64,000 bases of DNA from Giesbergeria anulus (lineage in GTDB: Bacteria; Pseudomonadota; Gammaproteobacteria; Burkholderiales; Burkholderiaceae_C): contig NZ_FOGD01000007.1 in the NCBI RefSeq assembly GCF_900111115.1, forward strand, positions 1-64,000. The letters run 5' to 3'. The notes under the pieces were generated by a model, which saw only the letters and a program-made list of their open reading frames with translations, ran no database searches and was not told the DNA's origin. Made by a program: the position numbers and the translations under genes. How positions within the stretch are numbered: the stretch's first letter is position 1; the number at the start of each line of letters is the position of its first letter. Shown piece after piece: positions 10,740-34,910 of this stretch.

Positions 10740-10850
10740 CAAAAATTTGGCGCATTCTTTCCAGAATTTGGTAGGTTTCCGCCAAAATTTGGCGGATTTT
10801 TGATAAGTCTGGCGGGTTTCTGCCAAAATTTGGCAGGTTTTGGAAAGATT
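10740..10850. repeat. CCAAAATTTGG-type repeat array, downstream of darB-like gene
   Basis: At least four imperfect copies of a ~24-bp unit built on GCCAAAATTTGGC with a GGTTT spacer. Exact GCCAAAATTTGGC is seen twice (near 10783 and 10823). A similar array lies on the other side of the darB-like gene. Confidence 0.65.
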
Positions 10851-20806: not shown

Positions 20807-22084
20807 TTACCTCCCGGTATAGGGTTCCATCTCCACGTCGCGGGAAATGGTGAGTGTGAAGGGGGTTCCAATTTCAACCGTGCCTGTAGGCGGGATGCGT
20901 GCGTTGCGCTGCAAAATGGTTGTGATGGTGTCGTGCAACGCCGTGCCCAGAATTGACCCGCCCTTTTCCTGCGAACCGTTGGATGAAGAAACGGTGATGC
21001 GCTGATCTTTGTCGGGCAACAACAGCGATGCAGCCCCCAGCATGAGGGATGTGCCAAACATCTTGAAAAAGTGGTTATTCACGTCCGCTGGGAGACCCGA
21101 AGCGCCCTGCATATCGCTGGCAGGAGTGGACATGAGGGAAAAGCTCTTTCCGTTGGGCAGACGCAGGCGCTCGCAGGCCGCCAATACAACCTCTTGGCCC
21201 ACCAGCAGCTCGGACTGATAACGGCACGTTACTTCGGAGCCGCGAGGGATGAGCATGGTTTGCATCGTCACGCTGTCATAAACATCGCTCATGACCTTGG
21301 CTGTCACCACACCCGGTAGATCGGTTTGCACCTTGCGGGTCAGCACGGTACGAATCAGGGTGCCCTCATAGATCGTGTTGGGTTTACGCGCATCCACCAT
21401 GCCTATGGGAGCCTCAATGCCCTTCGACTCTTTCAAGAAGGCAGCATGTAGGCTATCGGGCTTCTTCTTTGCGCCATCAGACTCGGCTGCGGCTATCGCT
21501 GCCATCATTCGCTCTTGCTGTCGCATTGCGTCTTCCGCAATTTTGCTGCTATCAAAATTGGGCAGCGCATCAGCAGGGGGTGCCTTTTCCTTGCTGGTTT
21601 TGCTGCTACTGGACAACTGCACATCCGTTCCCATAGGAGAAGCAAGGATGAGGGCCATCTTCTCGTCATCCCTGTTGGTTGCAGGCTCAGTCGCCATCTT
21701 CACTATCGGCGGTGGCGAGGGTGGTTGAGGGACTACGGTTTCTTCTAGCACCGTCACCACTGGCTTGGATCGCTCCAATTCGTCGGCGATGCTGGCCTCT
21801 GACTGCTGCTTGGTCGTCACCGCCTTATCTTTGCTGCCCTGAGACTGGGGCCACAGCATGGAACCAGCTACAGCTAAACCCAAAATTCCAATGGCCCAGT
21901 TTTTGAGATTACGCCCCGGCATACCTCTCTGAACAGAATTATCATGTTCATCGTGGGGCAAATCTTCCTCTGGGGGGCGAGCCGTCTTCTGCTTCGATTT
22001 TTTATATTGAGCAGGAGACTTAGGCAATTCGTCCAAATCATCCAGCGGATTCATGGACGGATGTGGCATGTTATTTTCTTGCAT
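20807..22084 (-). CDS. virB10: VirB10/TrbI-like secretion core protein
   Basis: A 425-aa protein with a cytoplasmic N-terminus, one membrane helix near residue 65 (NWAIGILGLAVAGSML), a Pro-rich periplasmic linker (PQPPSPPP) and the conserved C-terminal VirB10 domain (IYEGTLIRTVL, PRGSEVTCRY, LPNGKSFSL and a terminal DVEMEPY). VirB10 spans both membranes and gates the type IV secretion pore. AAGGGTG precedes ATG. It lies 13 bp after VirB9 and 3 bp before the lipoprotein gene. Confidence 0.9.
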   Translation of the reverse strand: MQENNMPHPSMNPLDDLDELPKSPAQYKKSKQKTARPPEEDLPHDEHDNSVQRGMPGRNLKNWAIGILGLAVAGSMLWPQSQGSKDKAVTTKQQSEASIADELERSKPVVTVLEETVVPQPPSPPPIVKMATEPATNRDDEKMALILASPMGTDVQLSSSSKTSKEKAPPADALPNFDSSKIAEDAMRQQERMMAAIAAAESDGAKKKPDSLHAAFLKESKGIEAPIGMVDARKPNTIYEGTLIRTVLTRKVQTDLPGVVTAKVMSDVYDSVTMQTMLIPRGSEVTCRYQSELLVGQEVVLAACERLRLPNGKSFSLMSTPASDMQGASGLPADVNNHFFKMFGTSLMLGAASLLLPDKDQRITVSSSNGSQEKGGSILGTALHDTITTILQRNARIPPTGTVEIGTPFTLTISRDVEMEPYTGR

Positions 22085-22097
22085 GGCACACCCTTCT

Positions 22098-22907
22098 TTA
22101 ATCGCGCACTAGGCGAACTTCCACGGATTTTCCAATACGCAAAATCCAATAAGGAGCAAAGCGATCAATAATGATGACATCGCGGTCGCGGAGATTGGCG
22201 CGATCCGCCACCGTGTAGTTCACCGGCATGAGATTTTCCTTATCGCGCTCATCACGTTCAACCATAAAAACGGCAGGGAGGTCTTGAATACCGGGTGGCA
22301 GGCGAATCCATGTTTTCAAACCATCAGAGTAAGCATGGACTCGCTTGTAATCTTCATTTTTCGTGTGAATAGAATAAAAAGACAGCAGCGAAGAATCAAT
22401 CGGCTTGGGCGCAAGATTCTGTGCATTCAGATGCTGTTCATGTGCTTTTTGTTCGTTCTGTGTTTCTTCAATTCGGTTACGCCAAGCCATTTTGATGCCC
22501 GCTTCTTCATCAGGGTAGGTGAACTGCGCTTTCTGGATGCGCTCACTCGACTTGGTAGTGGAAACCAGCTCGAATTGATAGACCCGCTTGTTGGTCACTA
22601 GCGACAACGATGTACGCACATCCGGTTGTAGGGCCTTGATGTAGAGGTTTTTTTCGTTGCCCTCAATGCGCCAGCGCACCTTTTCACCAATGCGCGGGGT
22701 TTCAATCAATTCCTCACCCGGCCCCATAGGAATGTGGGTGTGCATACCCACCGTCACTGGCAAGCGGAAAACCACATCAGGCGTGTAGGCGAAAGTGACA
22801 ATGCGCGAATCCAGATTGCCCGGAATGGGTACAGAGATTTCCGGCGTGGCCTGCGCCGCACCCAAACTGCACATCATCAGCAGTGAAGCTAAAATTTTCT
22901 TGCTCAT
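22098..22907 (-). CDS. virB9: VirB9/TrbG-like secretion protein
   Basis: A 269-aa protein with signal MSKKILASLLMMCSLGAAQA and VirB9-type blocks: VVFRLPVTVGMHTHI, NLYIKALQPDVRTSL and YQFELV in the N-domain, and a C-terminal region with TWIRLPPG and DRFAPYWILRIGK. VirB9 forms the outer-membrane ring of the channel with VirB7 and VirB10. Its ATG follows the VirB8 stop by one base, so expression is coupled. Confidence 0.9.
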   Translation of the reverse strand: MSKKILASLLMMCSLGAAQATPEISVPIPGNLDSRIVTFAYTPDVVFRLPVTVGMHTHIPMGPGEELIETPRIGEKVRWRIEGNEKNLYIKALQPDVRTSLSLVTNKRVYQFELVSTTKSSERIQKAQFTYPDEEAGIKMAWRNRIEETQNEQKAHEQHLNAQNLAPKPIDSSLLSFYSIHTKNEDYKRVHAYSDGLKTWIRLPPGIQDLPAVFMVERDERDKENLMPVNYTVADRANLRDRDVIIIDRFAPYWILRIGKSVEVRLVRD

Positions 22908-26009: not shown

Positions 26010-27623
26010 ATGCTTACCACCTTCGCTCCCCGCTCACTTTCTATTCTCGCCCTTGCTTGCTACGCCAGCATTGCGTCTGCCCAGTCCACGCCTGTCGTGC
26101 CTACAGACCTAGTGTTGTCCAAGCCCAGTTGGACGACTGAGACCGAAGACCCCAAGTTCTTTCTGCACCAAGGCTATGCGGGCGCTATTGAAGCTATCGA
26201 CATGGCTGGTTGCGTATTCAGCCAGCCCAAGGTGCTCAAGTTTTCCACTGCCACGCCGCCAGTGACTAACTACGGCTTGGTGCTGATCGACCCCAGCGAG
26301 GCCCGCAAGCTGCCTCGTGGCGAGAATAGCATCACAATTGATTGTGCTGGAAAAAAAACTAGCTTTGTCGTGAATAACAGCTATCCAGATTTAACAAAAA
26401 CCGTAGCCCGTTTTGATGATAGTGATCGGCAGGCCATGAAACTCATAGTCACGCGCCCCCCAGCAGAGGTATCGGCCAGCCTTCGTGGCGTTACTTTCTG
26501 GGTTGCAGCATCCGTCCCCGGTAGTGTTTTTGGTGTCCCCGATCAGCAACTGTTTTTTTTGGTGCCAAAGGCTGGCGGCGGCACTGAGTGGCGGCAGTTG
26601 ACCAGCGATGTGCTGTCCGTGGCCTTCGCAAAAAACCAAAGTGCGGCAAATCCTTCGCACGAATTCCCAGTGAATTTCGGCTTCACCAAAGAAGAAATGG
26701 CCGCGATCAATGCCAAGGTGCTTTTTGCCTACCAGATCGACGGTAGTGATATTAAAGTTCTCGACTATTCTTACGACCCAAAGATCGAAACCATGATTGC
26801 TGGGAAATATGCAGAACCGGGGCGACTCCACGCTTACGAAACACTGAACAGAGTTCGGGCTATTACTGGACTTGGTTATTTTGAGCAAGATGTAGCTCTT
26901 GATAAAGCGGCGCAGGCTCATGCAGATTACGTTAAGATTAATGGTGGCGGTCAGTATTATAGCCATGATGAAGTCCCCGGTCTTCCGGGTTTCAGTGGAA
27001 TTAGTCCAAGCGATAGAGCCTTGAGCGCTGGATATTCCAGCACATTTGCAGTTGGCGAAGTTATGAGTGGAAGCAATGGCGGTAGTAATTCGTCGGTTTG
27101 GGAATTGCTCGGTGGCCCATACCACGCCTTTATTATTTTGGATAAATTTCGGTATTATGGCATTGGTTTTAATGACAATGTTTACGTTACCGATTTTGCA
27201 AACAAACCCAATAACCCTCAAAAAGTTATCGACAAAAGCACTGTTGCTATTTACCCATGTAACGACATCGTTGTCAACGTGCAATCGCAAGGATACGAAA
27301 TTCCAAGTCCATCAGTATTGAATGAAAAACAAGATTTTGGTTATAGCAGTACGGCGATTGTGTCCATCGGGCAAAAGATCACAGTTGATTCTTGGGAGTT
27401 GCGTGACGCCAGTAAAAAAATTATTCCTACTGTTGTCATGACAAAAGATAACGACACAAGAAATCTAACGAGAGAATACTTTGCCTCGCTAATTCCACTT
27501 AATCCACTTCCTCGCGTCGAGACAAGTTATACCAGCGTGCTGAAAGGTAAAAATAACGGCATTCCATTTGAGAAAACCTGCACTTGGCGCACAACGGCGT
27601 TCAGGAATTTTTGGGCGAACTAA
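26010..27623 (+). CDS. Secreted CAP (SCP/PR-1-like) domain protein
   Basis: A 537-aa protein with a signal peptide (cleavage near ASAQ, residue ~25), an unrecognised N-terminal domain (~30-260) and a CAP/SCP-like domain (~275-410): ETLNRVRAITGL, AQAHADYV, YYSHDE, FAVGEVMS, ELLGGPYHAFIIL and FRYYGIGF. The His/Glu pattern (H in SHDE, E in GEV, H in PYHAF) fits the CAP cavity. CAP proteins are extracellular, with lipid-binding or protease-like roles in different families. The gene stands alone with its own promoter and terminator, next to gene X; the second half is more AT-rich. Role unknown. Confidence 0.75.
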   Translation: MLTTFAPRSLSILALACYASIASAQSTPVVPTDLVLSKPSWTTETEDPKFFLHQGYAGAIEAIDMAGCVFSQPKVLKFSTATPPVTNYGLVLIDPSEARKLPRGENSITIDCAGKKTSFVVNNSYPDLTKTVARFDDSDRQAMKLIVTRPPAEVSASLRGVTFWVAASVPGSVFGVPDQQLFFLVPKAGGGTEWRQLTSDVLSVAFAKNQSAANPSHEFPVNFGFTKEEMAAINAKVLFAYQIDGSDIKVLDYSYDPKIETMIAGKYAEPGRLHAYETLNRVRAITGLGYFEQDVALDKAAQAHADYVKINGGGQYYSHDEVPGLPGFSGISPSDRALSAGYSSTFAVGEVMSGSNGGSNSSVWELLGGPYHAFIILDKFRYYGIGFNDNVYVTDFANKPNNPQKVIDKSTVAIYPCNDIVVNVQSQGYEIPSPSVLNEKQDFGYSSTAIVSIGQKITVDSWELRDASKKIIPTVVMTKDNDTRNLTREYFASLIPLNPLPRVETSYTSVLKGKNNGIPFEKTCTWRTTAFRNFWAN

Positions 27624-27690: not shown

Positions 27691-29178
27691 CTAACCGCCG
27701 ACGCATGCGCCCAAAGAAATATACGACGATTCATAGCACGTTGGCCCAGAATCCTCTGGGTATTGGATGCAATATCCCGGTACCAACTGATAACCGCTGG
27801 TGGCGGTGATGCTGTAACAAGTCGCGCCAGCGGCGGCGGCGGCAGCTTCTGCACCAGATACTGTAATGCTGCCACAGCCTATAGTGATCGGCACGCACGT
27901 TGCCGCGATAGGCGTAGGCGTCGAACAAGTAGCACTGGCAGGAATCACCGAGCCATCAAGACAAGTTTTGGTTGCTGCTGCTGGAGGCGGTGTCCAGCAG
28001 GCAGCGCTGGCGGGAATCACCGAGCCATCTGGGCAGATCTGGGTAGGTGGTGGCAGCGTTGGGCAAGTATCAGTAGCCAGAACGACCGAGCCGTCAGCAC
28101 AAATCTTAGTTGGTGGTGGCAGCGCTGGGCAGGGCTGGGAAAGTGGCACTACCGAGCTGTCAGGGCAAGTTTTTGTAGGCTGCGGGCAAATTCCGCTTAG
28201 GGGCATCTCGGTTATACCGTCTGGGCAAATCTGGGTAGGATTTGGCACAATCGGGCAGGCTTGTCCAGCAGGTACCACCTTGCCATCGGGGCAAACCGTG
28301 GGCGGAGGTGCTGCGGGCGTGCAGGAAGCAACGACATTGACCCACGCCCCGTCATTACACGTTGCAGACAGCGTACCCGACACGCCGTTGTTCGATGCAA
28401 CCGAAGCTGTGCCATTGTGGGCGACACTGCCCCAGACGAAATTGCACGACTGATAGGGAGTGCTACCAGCGGGGCAACTCAATTTGGGCGGTGTTGGCGT
28501 CGTCGGTGGCGTTGGTGTTGTCGGCAGCGTCGGCGGCGCTGGTGGCGTTGGTAATGTGGGTGGCGTGGGCAGCGTCGGTGGTTTTGGCGGCGTCGGCAGC
28601 GATGGGGGCGCTGGCGTCTGCGGGGGAGCCGTGGGTGGACTATCGGCTACACACACCGTGTTCCCAAGCGAATCAGTGCTGCACTGCGGCGGGCAGGCTT
28701 GGCTAAAGAGAATGCGCGAGCCGTCCCAACAAGTTTTCAAACATAACCCGCCCTCGGGGTGGGCACCGCTGCTAACGCAAATCAAATCTTCTGGATCGCG
28801 GCAGCCGTTGCCGCCCGAAATGCCGCTGGGGTCGCCGCGTGGTTCGCGGCGGCAGTACGGGACGAAGATGCAAGCATCGACGCCGTTCGTGCCCTCCGCA
28901 AGGCAATGAGGGGGTGGGCCGCACCAAAATGGCGCTGAATCGCCTTCGTCGCGGTCGGTAATACGGGTGAGGCCCCCCGGCGCGTTGCAGCCTTCAATTG
29001 GCTTCATCTCACGCAGATCACGCATCCCTTGAGTGGAGGGATCATATGACCAACCACCATTCGGCTGTGAAGTTGGATTGAAAATGGTAGCGGGCATCGC
29101 TTGAGCGACAGCGTTGCCCGCTGTGACAAGCTGCGCGACGAGCGCAACGCTTGCAGCGAGTTTTCGTAGAAAACGCAT
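27691..29178 (-). CDS. Gene X: secreted Cys-rich repeat protein, family targeted by adjacent CRISPR
   Basis: A 495-aa protein with a signal peptide (LVTAGNAVAQA), an N-terminal Cys-rich domain, a long Pro/Thr linker (PTPP-type repeats, ~200-245), then six tandem ~22-aa units each with two Cys (such as QICPDGSVIPASAAC, KICADGSVVLATDTC, KTCLDGSVIPASATC) and a Cys-containing tail. GAGGAT precedes the ATG. The modular, disulfide-rich design suggests a surface or pilus-tip protein, perhaps for mating-pair contact; this is inference. DsbC encoded nearby could help fold it. All three spacers of the CRISPR array upstream match divergent versions of this gene. Confidence 0.7.
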   Translation of the reverse strand: MRFLRKLAASVALVAQLVTAGNAVAQAMPATIFNPTSQPNGGWSYDPSTQGMRDLREMKPIEGCNAPGGLTRITDRDEGDSAPFWCGPPPHCLAEGTNGVDACIFVPYCRREPRGDPSGISGGNGCRDPEDLICVSSGAHPEGGLCLKTCWDGSRILFSQACPPQCSTDSLGNTVCVADSPPTAPPQTPAPPSLPTPPKPPTLPTPPTLPTPPAPPTLPTTPTPPTTPTPPKLSCPAGSTPYQSCNFVWGSVAHNGTASVASNNGVSGTLSATCNDGAWVNVVASCTPAAPPPTVCPDGKVVPAGQACPIVPNPTQICPDGITEMPLSGICPQPTKTCPDSSVVPLSQPCPALPPPTKICADGSVVLATDTCPTLPPPTQICPDGSVIPASAACWTPPPAAATKTCLDGSVIPASATCSTPTPIAATCVPITIGCGSITVSGAEAAAAAAGATCYSITATSGYQLVPGYCIQYPEDSGPTCYESSYISLGACVGG

Positions 29179-29234
29179 GATTTTATCCTCCAGAATTAGA
29201 TTTCTAATCATGCCTTTTTTTTCTGGGAAATTGG

Positions 29235-29295
29235 AATCGAAAGATTCACTAAAAATGTTAGGAATCGAAAAGAAAAAACCGCCCGGAGGCGGTTT
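29235..29295. repeat. Direct repeat flanking CRISPR cassette, gene X side
   Basis: About 61 bp running from AATCGAAAGAT to GGCGGTTT, closely similar to 29677-29736 on the other side of the array. It includes a terminator hairpin. Confidence 0.7.
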
Positions 29296-29298
29296 CTC
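29270..29298 (-). terminator. Terminator of the CRISPR transcript
   Basis: AAACCGCC-tccg-GGCGGTTT followed by TTTCTTTTC on the minus strand, starting at the last base of the array. This fixes the array's direction as minus. Confidence 0.65.
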
Positions 29299-29506
29299 TT
29301 TCTAAGCTGCCTACACGGCAGGTAACACGGGGGCGCTGGCGTTTGCGGTGGCGCTGTCTTTCTAAGCTGCCTACACGGCAGAGAAGTGCGCGACTTACGC
29401 GAACTGAAGCCAATCGAATTTCTAAGCTGCCTACACGGCAGGTAACTCGGTGGCGTTGGCAACGCTGGCGGCGAGGGTTTTCTAAGCTGCCTACACGGCA
29501 GGTAAC
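29299..29506 (-). CRISPR. Type I-F-like CRISPR mini-array, 4 repeats, 3 spacers, no cas genes
   Basis: Repeats at 29299-29326, 29359-29386, 29419-29446 and 29479-29506 are 28 bp; spacers at 29327-29358, 29387-29418 and 29447-29478 are exactly 32 bp. On the minus strand each repeat has the I-F hairpin CTGCC-gtgta-GGCAG and ends CTTAGAAA. The second repeat differs only in its first six bases outside the hairpin. All three spacers match the neighbouring gene X at 23-26 of 32 bases, and the matched sites carry a CC PAM. No cas gene is in the window, so processing and interference would need host I-F proteins. Confidence 0.9.
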
Positions 29507-29621
29507 TAGACTTTTTCGAGTCTAAGCCTATGTTTTTGAAGTAATTTTTTGCTATTCCGTGTTTTTACCCTTTTGTTTGAGCCACAGCTACCTGAGCGGC
29601 GGTGACTCCGGTTGATGAAAT
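29507..29621 (-). promoter_or_regulatory. Presumed CRISPR leader
   Basis: AT-rich sequence with A tracts directly upstream (minus strand) of the first repeat, as expected for a leader. No unambiguous -35/-10 pair was found; the TTCCGCAGTTGCGG element lies at its far end. Confidence 0.4.
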
Positions 29622-29676: not shown

Positions 29677-29736
29677 AATCGAAAGATGCACGAAAAAAGC
29701 GAGGAATCGAAAAGAAAAACCGCCCGAAGGCGGTTT
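29677..29736. repeat. Direct repeat flanking CRISPR cassette, MazF side
   Basis: About 60 bp matching 29235-29295 with a few substitutions and one missing A. Its hairpin (29715-29736) is also positioned as terminator for the mazF-like gene. Confidence 0.7.
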
Positions 29737-29741
29737 GGTTT

Positions 29742-30068
29742 CTACTCAAAAATTGTTGATACTTTTGCCAGTACCTCGTCCATTATGGAATCTGGTAGCG
29801 ACTCAATCTTTCTTCCATTACGCGCAGCTAAATCAAGCACTCGTGGTTGATCGCAGCGAATAATTCCTGTAGTCTTTGTTCCTTCTAACGAAACAAAAAA
29901 TCCTAACCGACGAGCAAAATCGCCACCATTGGTAATTGGCAAAACCACAGGCAATTTTGTGGCTTGGTTAAATGCTCCGGGTGATACAACTAATACGGGG
30001 CGACTACCACTTTGCTCATGCCCAGCAGTCGGATCAAGCGACACTAAATATATGTCGCCGCGCTTCAT
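29742..30068 (-). CDS. mazF: MazF/PemK-family toxin
   Basis: A 108-aa protein starting MKRGDIYLVSLDPTAGHEQ, with SRPVLVVSP, LPITNGGDF and a QPRVLD segment: the endoribonuclease fold of MazF/PemK/ChpB. The ATG overlaps the antitoxin stop (ATGA), giving coupled translation. It would cleave mRNA when the antitoxin is lost, stabilising the plasmid. Confidence 0.9.
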   Translation of the reverse strand: MKRGDIYLVSLDPTAGHEQSGSRPVLVVSPGAFNQATKLPVVLPITNGGDFARRLGFFVSLEGTKTTGIIRCDQPRVLDLAARNGRKIESLPDSIMDEVLAKVSTIFE

Positions 30069-30322
30069 AATAACTCGCCCCCGGCAGCGGGAGCATCGAC
30101 CCATTCACGCTGATCTTCTGGTTGCGGCTGTGTATAGTCCGATCCAGCCAGCAGTTGTGCCATTGTGTAGCGCGGACGGGGTTTGGGCTTGACCAAAAGG
30201 CAGCCATGATCGACGGTCAAGCCCACCGTTGTACCGACTTGCAGATGAAGCTGCTCAAGGAGCAAAGGCGGTACGGCCAGCATGATTGAGCCGCCAACTT
30301 TGCGCAAACTGGTTGTATGCAT
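30065..30322 (-). CDS. mazE: MazE/PemI-family antitoxin
   Basis: An 85-aa protein with the SpoVT-AbrB swapped-hairpin DNA-binding motif (LRKVGGSIMLAVPP...LQVGTTVGLTVDHGCLLVKP) and an acidic, Pro-rich C-terminal tail for binding the toxin. It is the first gene of the pair, and an 18-bp inverted repeat lies 20 bp upstream. Confidence 0.9.
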   Translation of the reverse strand: MHTTSLRKVGGSIMLAVPPLLLEQLHLQVGTTVGLTVDHGCLLVKPKPRPRYTMAQLLAGSDYTQPQPEDQREWVDAPAAGGELL

Positions 30323-34483: not shown

Positions 34484-34910
34484 GCGTGAAACCTCGGCAT
34501 TCATGCCGGGGAGGTAGAGCGCGGAACGCATAGCATTCCTTGCCTTGGGCCGTTACCTGCTCACGTCCATTTAATAGCCCGGTTAAAAAATAATCAGTGC
34601 AAGGCTTTTCACCTCCGCTGGGCCTTTCGGCTCTGCCTGTAAGGGCCTAGTGACGCACGCCTTGCGGCGTGTCTCCCTTCGGGAATGTGCATAACCGGCT
34701 CCAGCCTTTGCAAGCTGCGATCTAAACCTTCGGGCCTTTACCTTTGCCCAGCATGATCTAAACCTTGCAGAGCAGCAAACTGAGGAAGCATTTGCTGGTG
34801 CGTCTGAACGACCTATTACTCACGTAGCGGATTGGCTACCGCTTTCCCTGGTCAACCCGGCTTGGCGCTTTTCAGCTCCAAGCCCCATTCTTTAGGGTGG
34901 GGTGATTGAC
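34484..34910. mobile_element. Decayed IS200/IS605-type element without transposase
   Basis: About 430 bp of non-coding DNA bounded by subterminal hairpins of the kind seen at IS200/IS605 ends: CCTCGGCAT-tc-ATGCCGGGG (34492-34511) and CCCCA...TGGGG (~34883-34902). No tnpA or tnpB remains, so it is either a remnant or a palindrome-associated non-autonomous element. It separates pilS from the SD-like AAGGAG of the 32-bp tandem repeat. Confidence 0.5.

Follow-up and report, generated by a model that had tools for sequence, protein, structure and literature searches.

A Cas-less type I-F CRISPR mini-array on a plasmid-like element of Giesbergeria anulus and its likeness to the neighbouring gene

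Why should a mobile element carry a short CRISPR array but no CRISPR-associated proteins to use it, and why should the spacers of this array resemble the gene next door? The question is raised by contig C12 (146,907 bp) of a G. anulus assembly (G000; 3.42 Mb, 99.6% complete). Positions 1-64000 of this contig were analysed and are referred to here as the window. Proteins resembling VirB4, VirB9, VirB10 and PilN are encoded on C12, with clear E-values that all stay below the strict NCBIfam cut-offs, and no overlap of the contig ends was found. Most simply, C12 can be read as a conjugative plasmid, the other reading being an integrated element. A HEARO RNA (RF02033, 103.8 bits) was observed between pil genes of the window (34667-34910, minus strand). 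The array neighbours an open reading frame termed gene X. On the evidence set out below, the segment is probably a Cas-less I-F guide cassette on a conjugative plasmid-like element, run by the host and directed against the gene X of sister plasmids.

The array reads on the minus strand from 29506 down to 29299 and comprises four I-F repeats of 28 nt, separated by three spacers of 32 nt, designated S1 to S3 (Table 1). The repeats have the hallmarks of type I-F arrays, namely a CTGCC-5-GGCAG hairpin, an 8-nt CTTAGAAA handle or tail and spacers of 32 nt. Repeat 3 has a variant 5' part (CTTCTC) with hairpin core and handle unchanged, and the repeats differ from those of the host array in the 5' part and the loop. 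When the six host I-F Cas proteins were compared with C12 by tblastn, no homologue emerged (best E 0.006), and the only match to PF09618 in the whole genome lies on another contig, C14. Thus, given four Rfam matches and a contig on which I-F Cas homologues were not found, the Cas-less, I-F-like mini-array proposed in a preliminary description of the locus is confirmed.

Table 1. Features of the array, its flanks and the gene X module (window coordinates).
Feature	Position	Strand	Evidence
I-F repeat 1 (leader side), GTTACC...CTTAGAAA	29479-29506	-	Rfam CRISPR-DR4, 37.9 bits; hairpin
Spacer S1 (leader-proximal)	29447-29478	-	8-9 mismatches to several gene X Pro-linker registers
I-F repeat 2	29419-29446	-	Rfam CRISPR-DR4, 37.9 bits
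Spacer S2	29387-29418	-	8 mismatches to 28993-29024; complementary strand encodes RDLRELKPIE
I-F repeat 3	29359-29386	-	Rfam CRISPR-DR4, 38.4 bits
Spacer S3	29327-29358	-	6 mismatches to 28602-28633
I-F repeat 4 (distal)	29299-29326	-	Rfam CRISPR-DR4, 37.9 bits
Leader-like 42 nt beside repeat 1	29507-29548	-	Alignment to host chromosomal I-F leader
Intrinsic terminator	29273-29298	-	11-bp stem, 4-nt loop, T tail
AATCGAAA-terminator block, distal side of array	29235-29295	.	Direct repeats D3/D4, 88-89%
AATCGAAA-terminator block, between mazF and leader	29677-29736	.	Direct repeats D3/D4, 88-89%
MazF/ChpB-like toxin gene, upstream of array	29742-30104	-	NCBIfam PRK09812, E 1.5e-31, below its cut-off
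Gene X site resembling S2 (CC at 5' side)	28993-29024	+	8 mismatches; 6/7 changed codons synonymous
Gene X site resembling S3 (CC at 5' side)	28602-28633	-	6 mismatches; 5/5 changed whole codons synonymous
S1-like sites, repeated Pro linker	28521-28606	-	8-9 mismatches, several registers
Gene X, 506 aa, secreted-looking Pro/Cys-rich protein	27691-29211	-	ORF
537-aa partner gene of variable module	26010-27623	+	Homologues close to gene X in G004 and in G011

The proteins missing from C12 are encoded elsewhere in the same assembly. Contig C14 carries Cas1f, Cas3f and Csy1-4, all above the NCBIfam cut-offs and together a complete I-F system, along with a long I-F array. Csy4, whose single gene in this genome is the one on C14, was detected in 4/26 genus genomes, including both bearers of a C12-type element, G000 and the metagenome-assembled genome (MAG) G004. 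To judge by this gene set, the host I-F system can be expected to use the plasmid guides. The lack of I-F Cas proteins in hosts of this plasmid family had been put forward as grounds for refuting such use; G000 and G004 both have Csy4, whereas none was found in G011, a further bearer of a gene X homologue. The host also has a solo crRNA-like unit between csy1 and cas3 (locus L100, 442-515; C14 ~309341-309414). Its 'spacer' agrees at positions 1-5 and 7-11 with a site that is flanked by CC and lies immediately upstream of csy1 (L100, 401-432), and the unit looks like a cas-autorepressing mini-CRISPR of the CreR type.

In a right-anchored alignment the leader-like 42 nt scored 34 against the host leader (null mean 12.2), a value reached by none of 1000 mononucleotide shuffles. 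With the leaders of G004, G006 and G001, 3, 10 and 145 of 1000 shuffles, respectively, were as good. In sequence, the array leader resembles that of the host, less so those of G004 and G006, and not that of G001. No sigma-70-like promoter was seen in it. At the distal end, the terminator hairpin (-16.4 kcal/mol; 0/200 shuffles as good) starts at 29298, the first base past repeat 4. A AATCGAAA-terminator block of ~60 bp flanks the array on both sides and is absent from the other three of the five terminator places in the window. This duplicated block may be a trace of the arrival of the cassette, that is an insertion scar, or may represent regulatory iterons.

Such flanks are also what a captured relic might leave behind. 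A chromosomal array of the genus could have held three spacers against a sister plasmid, and a piece of it could have been caught by the plasmid through recombination and kept with no selected function. The likeness of the leader to chromosomal leaders of the genus, the position of the cassette between 88% direct repeats, with the terminator block as a perhaps recombining site, the leader in which no promoter was seen and the diverged 5' part of one repeat all speak for such an origin. Primed acquisition draws on both strands within a small region, and the spacers of this array, which come from such a region and from both of its strands, would fit it. However, a chance landing 87 bp from a gene that resembles the spacers would be unlikely, arrays beside their own targets are also seen in phages (see below), and the terminator stands exactly at the array end. 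Furthermore, the exact repeat core occurs in no other genome among 399 of the family (13/399, own included, with <=2 mismatches). We therefore regard the relic as an unlikely explanation, and return to a host-run cassette directed against sister plasmids.

The best match of each spacer in the window outside the array lies in gene X, 87 bp from the array. Three controls were applied. When 20,000 random 32-mers of the window were compared with gene X, 8 mismatches were found once and fewer never. Among 5,000 shuffles per spacer, the observed value was reached twice for S1 and not at all for S2 and S3. Finally, 103 readable chromosomal spacers from four genus genomes (38 from the host and 65 from G004, G006 and G001, the N-masked part of the host array being left out) gave best values of 11-16 mismatches. 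By all three controls the resemblance of the spacers to gene X far exceeds chance, in line with the earlier proposal that all three derive from a gene X homologue. The counts of 8 and 6 mismatches previously given for S2 and S3 hold, but the site with 9 proposed for S1 (28575-28606, CC present) is not unique because the Pro linker of gene X repeats: S1 has 8 mismatches at 28521-28552, where CC is absent, and 9 again at three further linker registers. Likewise, the CC protospacer adjacent motif (PAM) described for each site is present 5' of the S2 and S3 sites and of the 28575-28606 site; two of these three lie in proline codons, and since such linker codons are CCN the motif carries little weight there.

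The kind of differences indicates where the spacers came from. Mismatches fall on third codon positions in 6/6 cases for S3 and 6/8 for S2 (12/14 together), and 11 of the 12 changed codons lying wholly within S2 and S3 are synonymous. That all changes in S2 but one are synonymous had been noted before; 6/7 of its changed codons are synonymous. For S1, 3/6 changed codons are synonymous at 28521-28552 and 2/6 at 28575-28606. This pattern shows that S2 and S3 came from a diverged coding homologue of gene X. S2 lies on the strand opposite to S1 and S3, as would be expected from ordinary spacer capture but hardly from a simple duplication. Seed mismatches, which the preliminary description placed at all three sites, do occur at each (S2, position 4; S3, positions 1, 4 and 7; S1, positions 1 and 4 or 4 and 5), but with 1-3 per site within positions 1-8 and a pooled 6/23 they are not concentrated there. 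The mismatches in gene X look like ordinary coding divergence in these alignments, and as the seed is not enriched and the PAM is kept, there is no sign of selection for self-immunity in the plasmid. A gene X site with a partial match and a PAM could even trigger priming against the plasmid that bears it. No chromosomal spacer of the host (38 readable) matches C12 with <=8 mismatches, and none of these or the 65 spacers of G004, G006 and G001 has <8 mismatches to C12 or to the G004 contig.

Two further explanations hinge on these sites. The spacers might once have fitted the plasmid's own gene X, which later changed mostly synonymously, as the mismatches of S2 and S3 would allow. A single change in PAM or seed would have sufficed for escape, whereas about a quarter of the bases differ per site, along the whole spacer (6-9/32, i.e. 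19-28%, at every site), and a homologue at the divergence of a sister plasmid explains these differences directly. A former self-match is therefore very improbable. Alternatively, the crRNAs might be regulatory. CreR-like mini-CRISPRs guide Cascade to a cas promoter, where binding without cutting lowers expression, and host Cascade might act on gene X in the same manner. The partial CC-PAM matches in the neighbouring gene and the CreR-like unit of the host are compatible with this idea. However, no gene X site has an intact seed, a site combining CC and seed, as in CreR, was found for S1-S3 neither in gene X nor in its upstream region, and the matches lie inside the gene on both strands. Hence, regulation of gene X is very improbable, and a guide cassette against foreign gene X alleles is the reading pursued here.

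By eye, the gene X protein begins with a signal-peptide-like stretch; its tail is rich in Pro and Cys. No family was found for it in Pfam, NCBIfam or PHROG at E 0.001, nor was one found in these databases for the 537-aa partner, whose product is presumably CAP-domain-like. A sister of the element is present on a 153-kb contig of the Giesbergeria MAG G004, which is collinear (inverted) with C12 over ~5-103 kb and, in 74 kb of aligned sequence, 80.3% identical to it. The two contigs differ by a mean of 5.6 mismatches per 32-mer (sd 3.35), so that the spacer divergence of 6-9/32 falls within the range of the sister plasmid and fits a source in a sister-type gene X. Compared with its G004 counterpart, gene X is only 43% identical and the partner 52% (also 52%, over 278 aa, to G011), whereas values of 82-92% were found for the genes closest to them on both sides; two pil genes are low as well (48 and 60%). 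In G004, contig C3 (locus L029, 10576-14157) carries two gene X copies, a 950-aa one rich in CPDGS-like repeats and a shorter one of 206 aa. The gene X module looks repeat-expanding and fast-evolving. Among 100 relatives, 6 including G000 gave a match to gene X, strong only in G000, G004 and G011, in the last of which the homologue lies on a chromosome-sized contig. Gene X was also found in 2/399 family genomes (one being its own), in 1/399 order genomes (its own) and at one locus, the G004 sister, in GTDB genome contigs; tblastn against PLSDB and a profile search of IMG/VR retrieved none.

Near-perfect spacer matches in gene X homologues of related plasmids had been expected to support this reading. 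PLSDB returned 54 records for S2, none covering 80% of it, 211 for S3 (95 covering 80%) and 170 for S1 (52 covering 80%), and the best 10 matches per spacer comprised only unrelated GC-rich genes (best E 5e-3). INPHARED gave 3, 49 and 88 records for the three spacers, the best of them unrelated (best E 0.08), and exact 24-mers of S1, S2 and S3 had 0 matches each in IMG/VR. In none of the plasmids, phages and genomes searched (PLSDB, INPHARED, IMG/VR and the family and order genomes) was a near-perfect protospacer found. The proposal of an array turned on related plasmids through the I-F system of the host is therefore sustained by the complete I-F system and the sister element, but not by a protospacer. 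As candidate targets the G004 contig (best S2 site 8 mismatches, S1 and S3 >10) and G011 (S3 at 7 mismatches in the low-complexity gene X linker) were rejected. Sister plasmids had also been thought worth inspecting for the array, and no CRISPR-like repeat was detected in a 7-kb stretch around gene X in G004. Plasmids of PLSDB matching the repeat were dismissed as comparable arrays (six of eight inspected; five with I-F or I-Fv cas genes, one unannotated there). A three-spacer I-F-like array with degenerate repeats and no local self-match was observed in a family genome (G144; locus L073, 1380-1560) and is possibly of the transposon type.

If array and target are adjacent for a reason, other mobile elements might show the same layout. 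IMG/VR was scanned for I-F repeats and each spacer was compared with its own contig. The first look covered 81 loci, 70 of which yielded 370 spacer-like 32-mers. Subsequently, 34 records (16 + 18) were scanned whole, or nearly so for G830; by pattern, 23 of them have <=5 repeat units and 11 have more. An array common to L164 and G813 was counted once. Four of the first 12 records (L120, L160, L177 and L191) and L164 had been chosen for a local match already seen and are hence not blind. In the 23 records with <=5 units, spacers match their own record with <=8 mismatches in four arrays from three phage kinds (G807, G812 and G813, the last with two arrays; L164 is the duplicate). All of these matches lie within 500 bp of the array and none farther away. 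Allowing for the choice of records, the figure for +-500 bp is 6e-4, within the fetched loci of three mini-arrays; the second array of G813 was found without prior picking. G813 is the IMG/VR record of L165 and has two separate I-F arrays, at 10768 and 21978-22160.

The array of G807 immediately follows an exonuclease/DUF2800 gene (7 mismatches, CC retained) and that of G812 a major tail gene (4 mismatches, at positions 3, 6, 8 and 9, with CG at the PAM position). In G813, array 1 lies beside the capsid gene (7 mismatches, five of them at positions 1-7, CC retained) and array 2 beside a GemA-like gene (mismatches at 2, 3, 5 and 15, AC at the PAM position). Thus, in three of the four phage mini-arrays the seed or PAM of the resident site is clearly altered. 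For the spacers of G812 and G807, no good protospacer match was found in INPHARED. Most short arrays carry no self-homologous spacer at all: the other 19 of the 23 records have none with <=8 mismatches, and at six small-array loci no local match was seen, 15 spacer-like 32-mers showing 11-14 mismatches once +-95 bp had been excluded.

Among the longer arrays, near matches were found in G818 (9 units; 1 kb, 8 mismatches) and in G817, where the match lies in the portal gene at 1.1 kb with a single mismatch, in the seed, and CG at the PAM position. G817, the record of L177 (21421-23480), encodes Csy4, the only Cas protein sought there, and is hence not Cas-less. Far matches (12-32 kb) occur in G821 (2), G828 (2) and G827 (1); seven further matches with 9 mismatches are all far and about at chance level. 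Within positions 1-8, mismatches account for 17/31 at the near sites and 6/31 at the five distant sites matched by long arrays (nominal Fisher p 0.008). From these alignments, the resident copy of the target looks edited for escape from the guide in the phages, which implies working guides. The plasmid shares with the phages the adjacency (87 bp, 3/3 spacers) but not the seed pattern (6/23); its gene X is simply another allele. Two candidates were discarded, L135, whose 'spacer' was sequence past the last repeat, and a 9-mismatch match at 0.9 kb in G816, which is AT-rich and equalled by its own shuffles. Some phage contigs have I-F hairpins every 46-48 nt, with 'spacers' of ~20 nt (L126, 7780-7960; L168, 10600-10670; L169, 1434-1510; L122, 1131-1210), which are perhaps multi-copy Racr decoys.

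I-F repeats on a mobile element may also serve as RNA anti-CRISPRs, the plasmid being shielded from the host I-F system by repeats that mainly sequester Cas6f and Cas7f. Such an action is described for mimics of I-F repeats carried by mobile elements (PMC10651486; review PMC11656645), and like RacrIF1 (PMC10651486) the repeats of the plasmid would be handled by the host Cas6f. In these accounts, however, RacrIF1 and its kind are solitary repeat units that inhibit the host system, whereas the plasmid has four normally spaced repeats and would make use of that system. In addition, a decoy needs neither an I-F leader nor 32-nt spacers homologous to one gene. A Racr-like role is thus improbable, and a cassette of working guides remains the favoured reading.

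Several related systems have been described. The archaeal viruses SPV1 and SPV2 carry mini-CRISPR arrays that are reported to target each other next to the arrays, the own sites being changed, and in the discussion of this proximity by Medvedeva et al. 2019 its origins and consequences are called unclear (PMC6858448). We propose, by analogy, that the cassette would work like these mini-arrays. As far as the description of SPV1 and SPV2 goes (PMC6858448), these are archaeal viruses with another CRISPR type, whose relatives are known and matched by some spacers at 100%. Here, a bacterial conjugative element carries type I-F guides, no matching relative was found in the collections searched, and all three spacers point to one neighbouring gene. 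Orphan plasmid arrays likewise lack cas genes, and the use of host Cas proteins in trans and plasmid-plasmid conflict have been proposed for them (Pinilla-Redondo et al. 2021, PMC9071438); in that report's account of such arrays, no case appears in which all spacers derive from a homologue of the neighbouring gene. The type IV-A and V-M systems, as summarized in a review (PMC11656645), also direct plasmid-borne guides against genes of other plasmids; in contrast to the present plasmid, which has guides only, they carry their own effector. In a Bathyarchaeia virus, self-targeting mini-array spacers with a 100% match are described, their role being called unclear (PMC10848311). In the open-access literature searched, neither a plasmid I-F mini-array with neighbouring-gene spacers nor a rule of array-target linkage beyond the remark of Medvedeva et al. 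was found, a result that does not establish absence.

How might the cassette act? It would be transcribed, its repeats would be cut by the host Cas6f (Csy4), and the three crRNAs would be taken up by the host Cascade. Together with Cas3f, these complexes would destroy incoming sister plasmids bearing the other gene X allele, and the resident gene X would be spared by its divergence at the sites. Selection may then have favoured linkage, so that the guide is inherited together with an allele of its target that is immune to it: a guide parted from this allele by recombination would find its target in the gene X of the very plasmid that carries it, which would explain why the array adjoins gene X. 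The phages with the same layout lend support to this idea. We suggest tentatively, as a possibility somewhat short of an even chance, that the guide ('poison') and the altered copy of the target ('antidote') form a linkage group that turns the host CRISPR system into an allele-specific exclusion device.

If this is true, the plasmid carries guides alone, rents the CRISPR system of its host and keeps out related plasmids at a single locus that changes fast. The linkage of a guide to its immune allele would then apply to the plasmid and also, independently, to several phages that bear I-F arrays, and it would account for the proximity of array and target in SPV1 and SPV2. The repeated placement in a plasmid and in unrelated phages thus offers a testable answer to the question of why arrays lie near their targets. 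It would further provide a search rule, in that the weak matches of a short array in the neighbouring gene may reveal the real enemies of the element that carries it.
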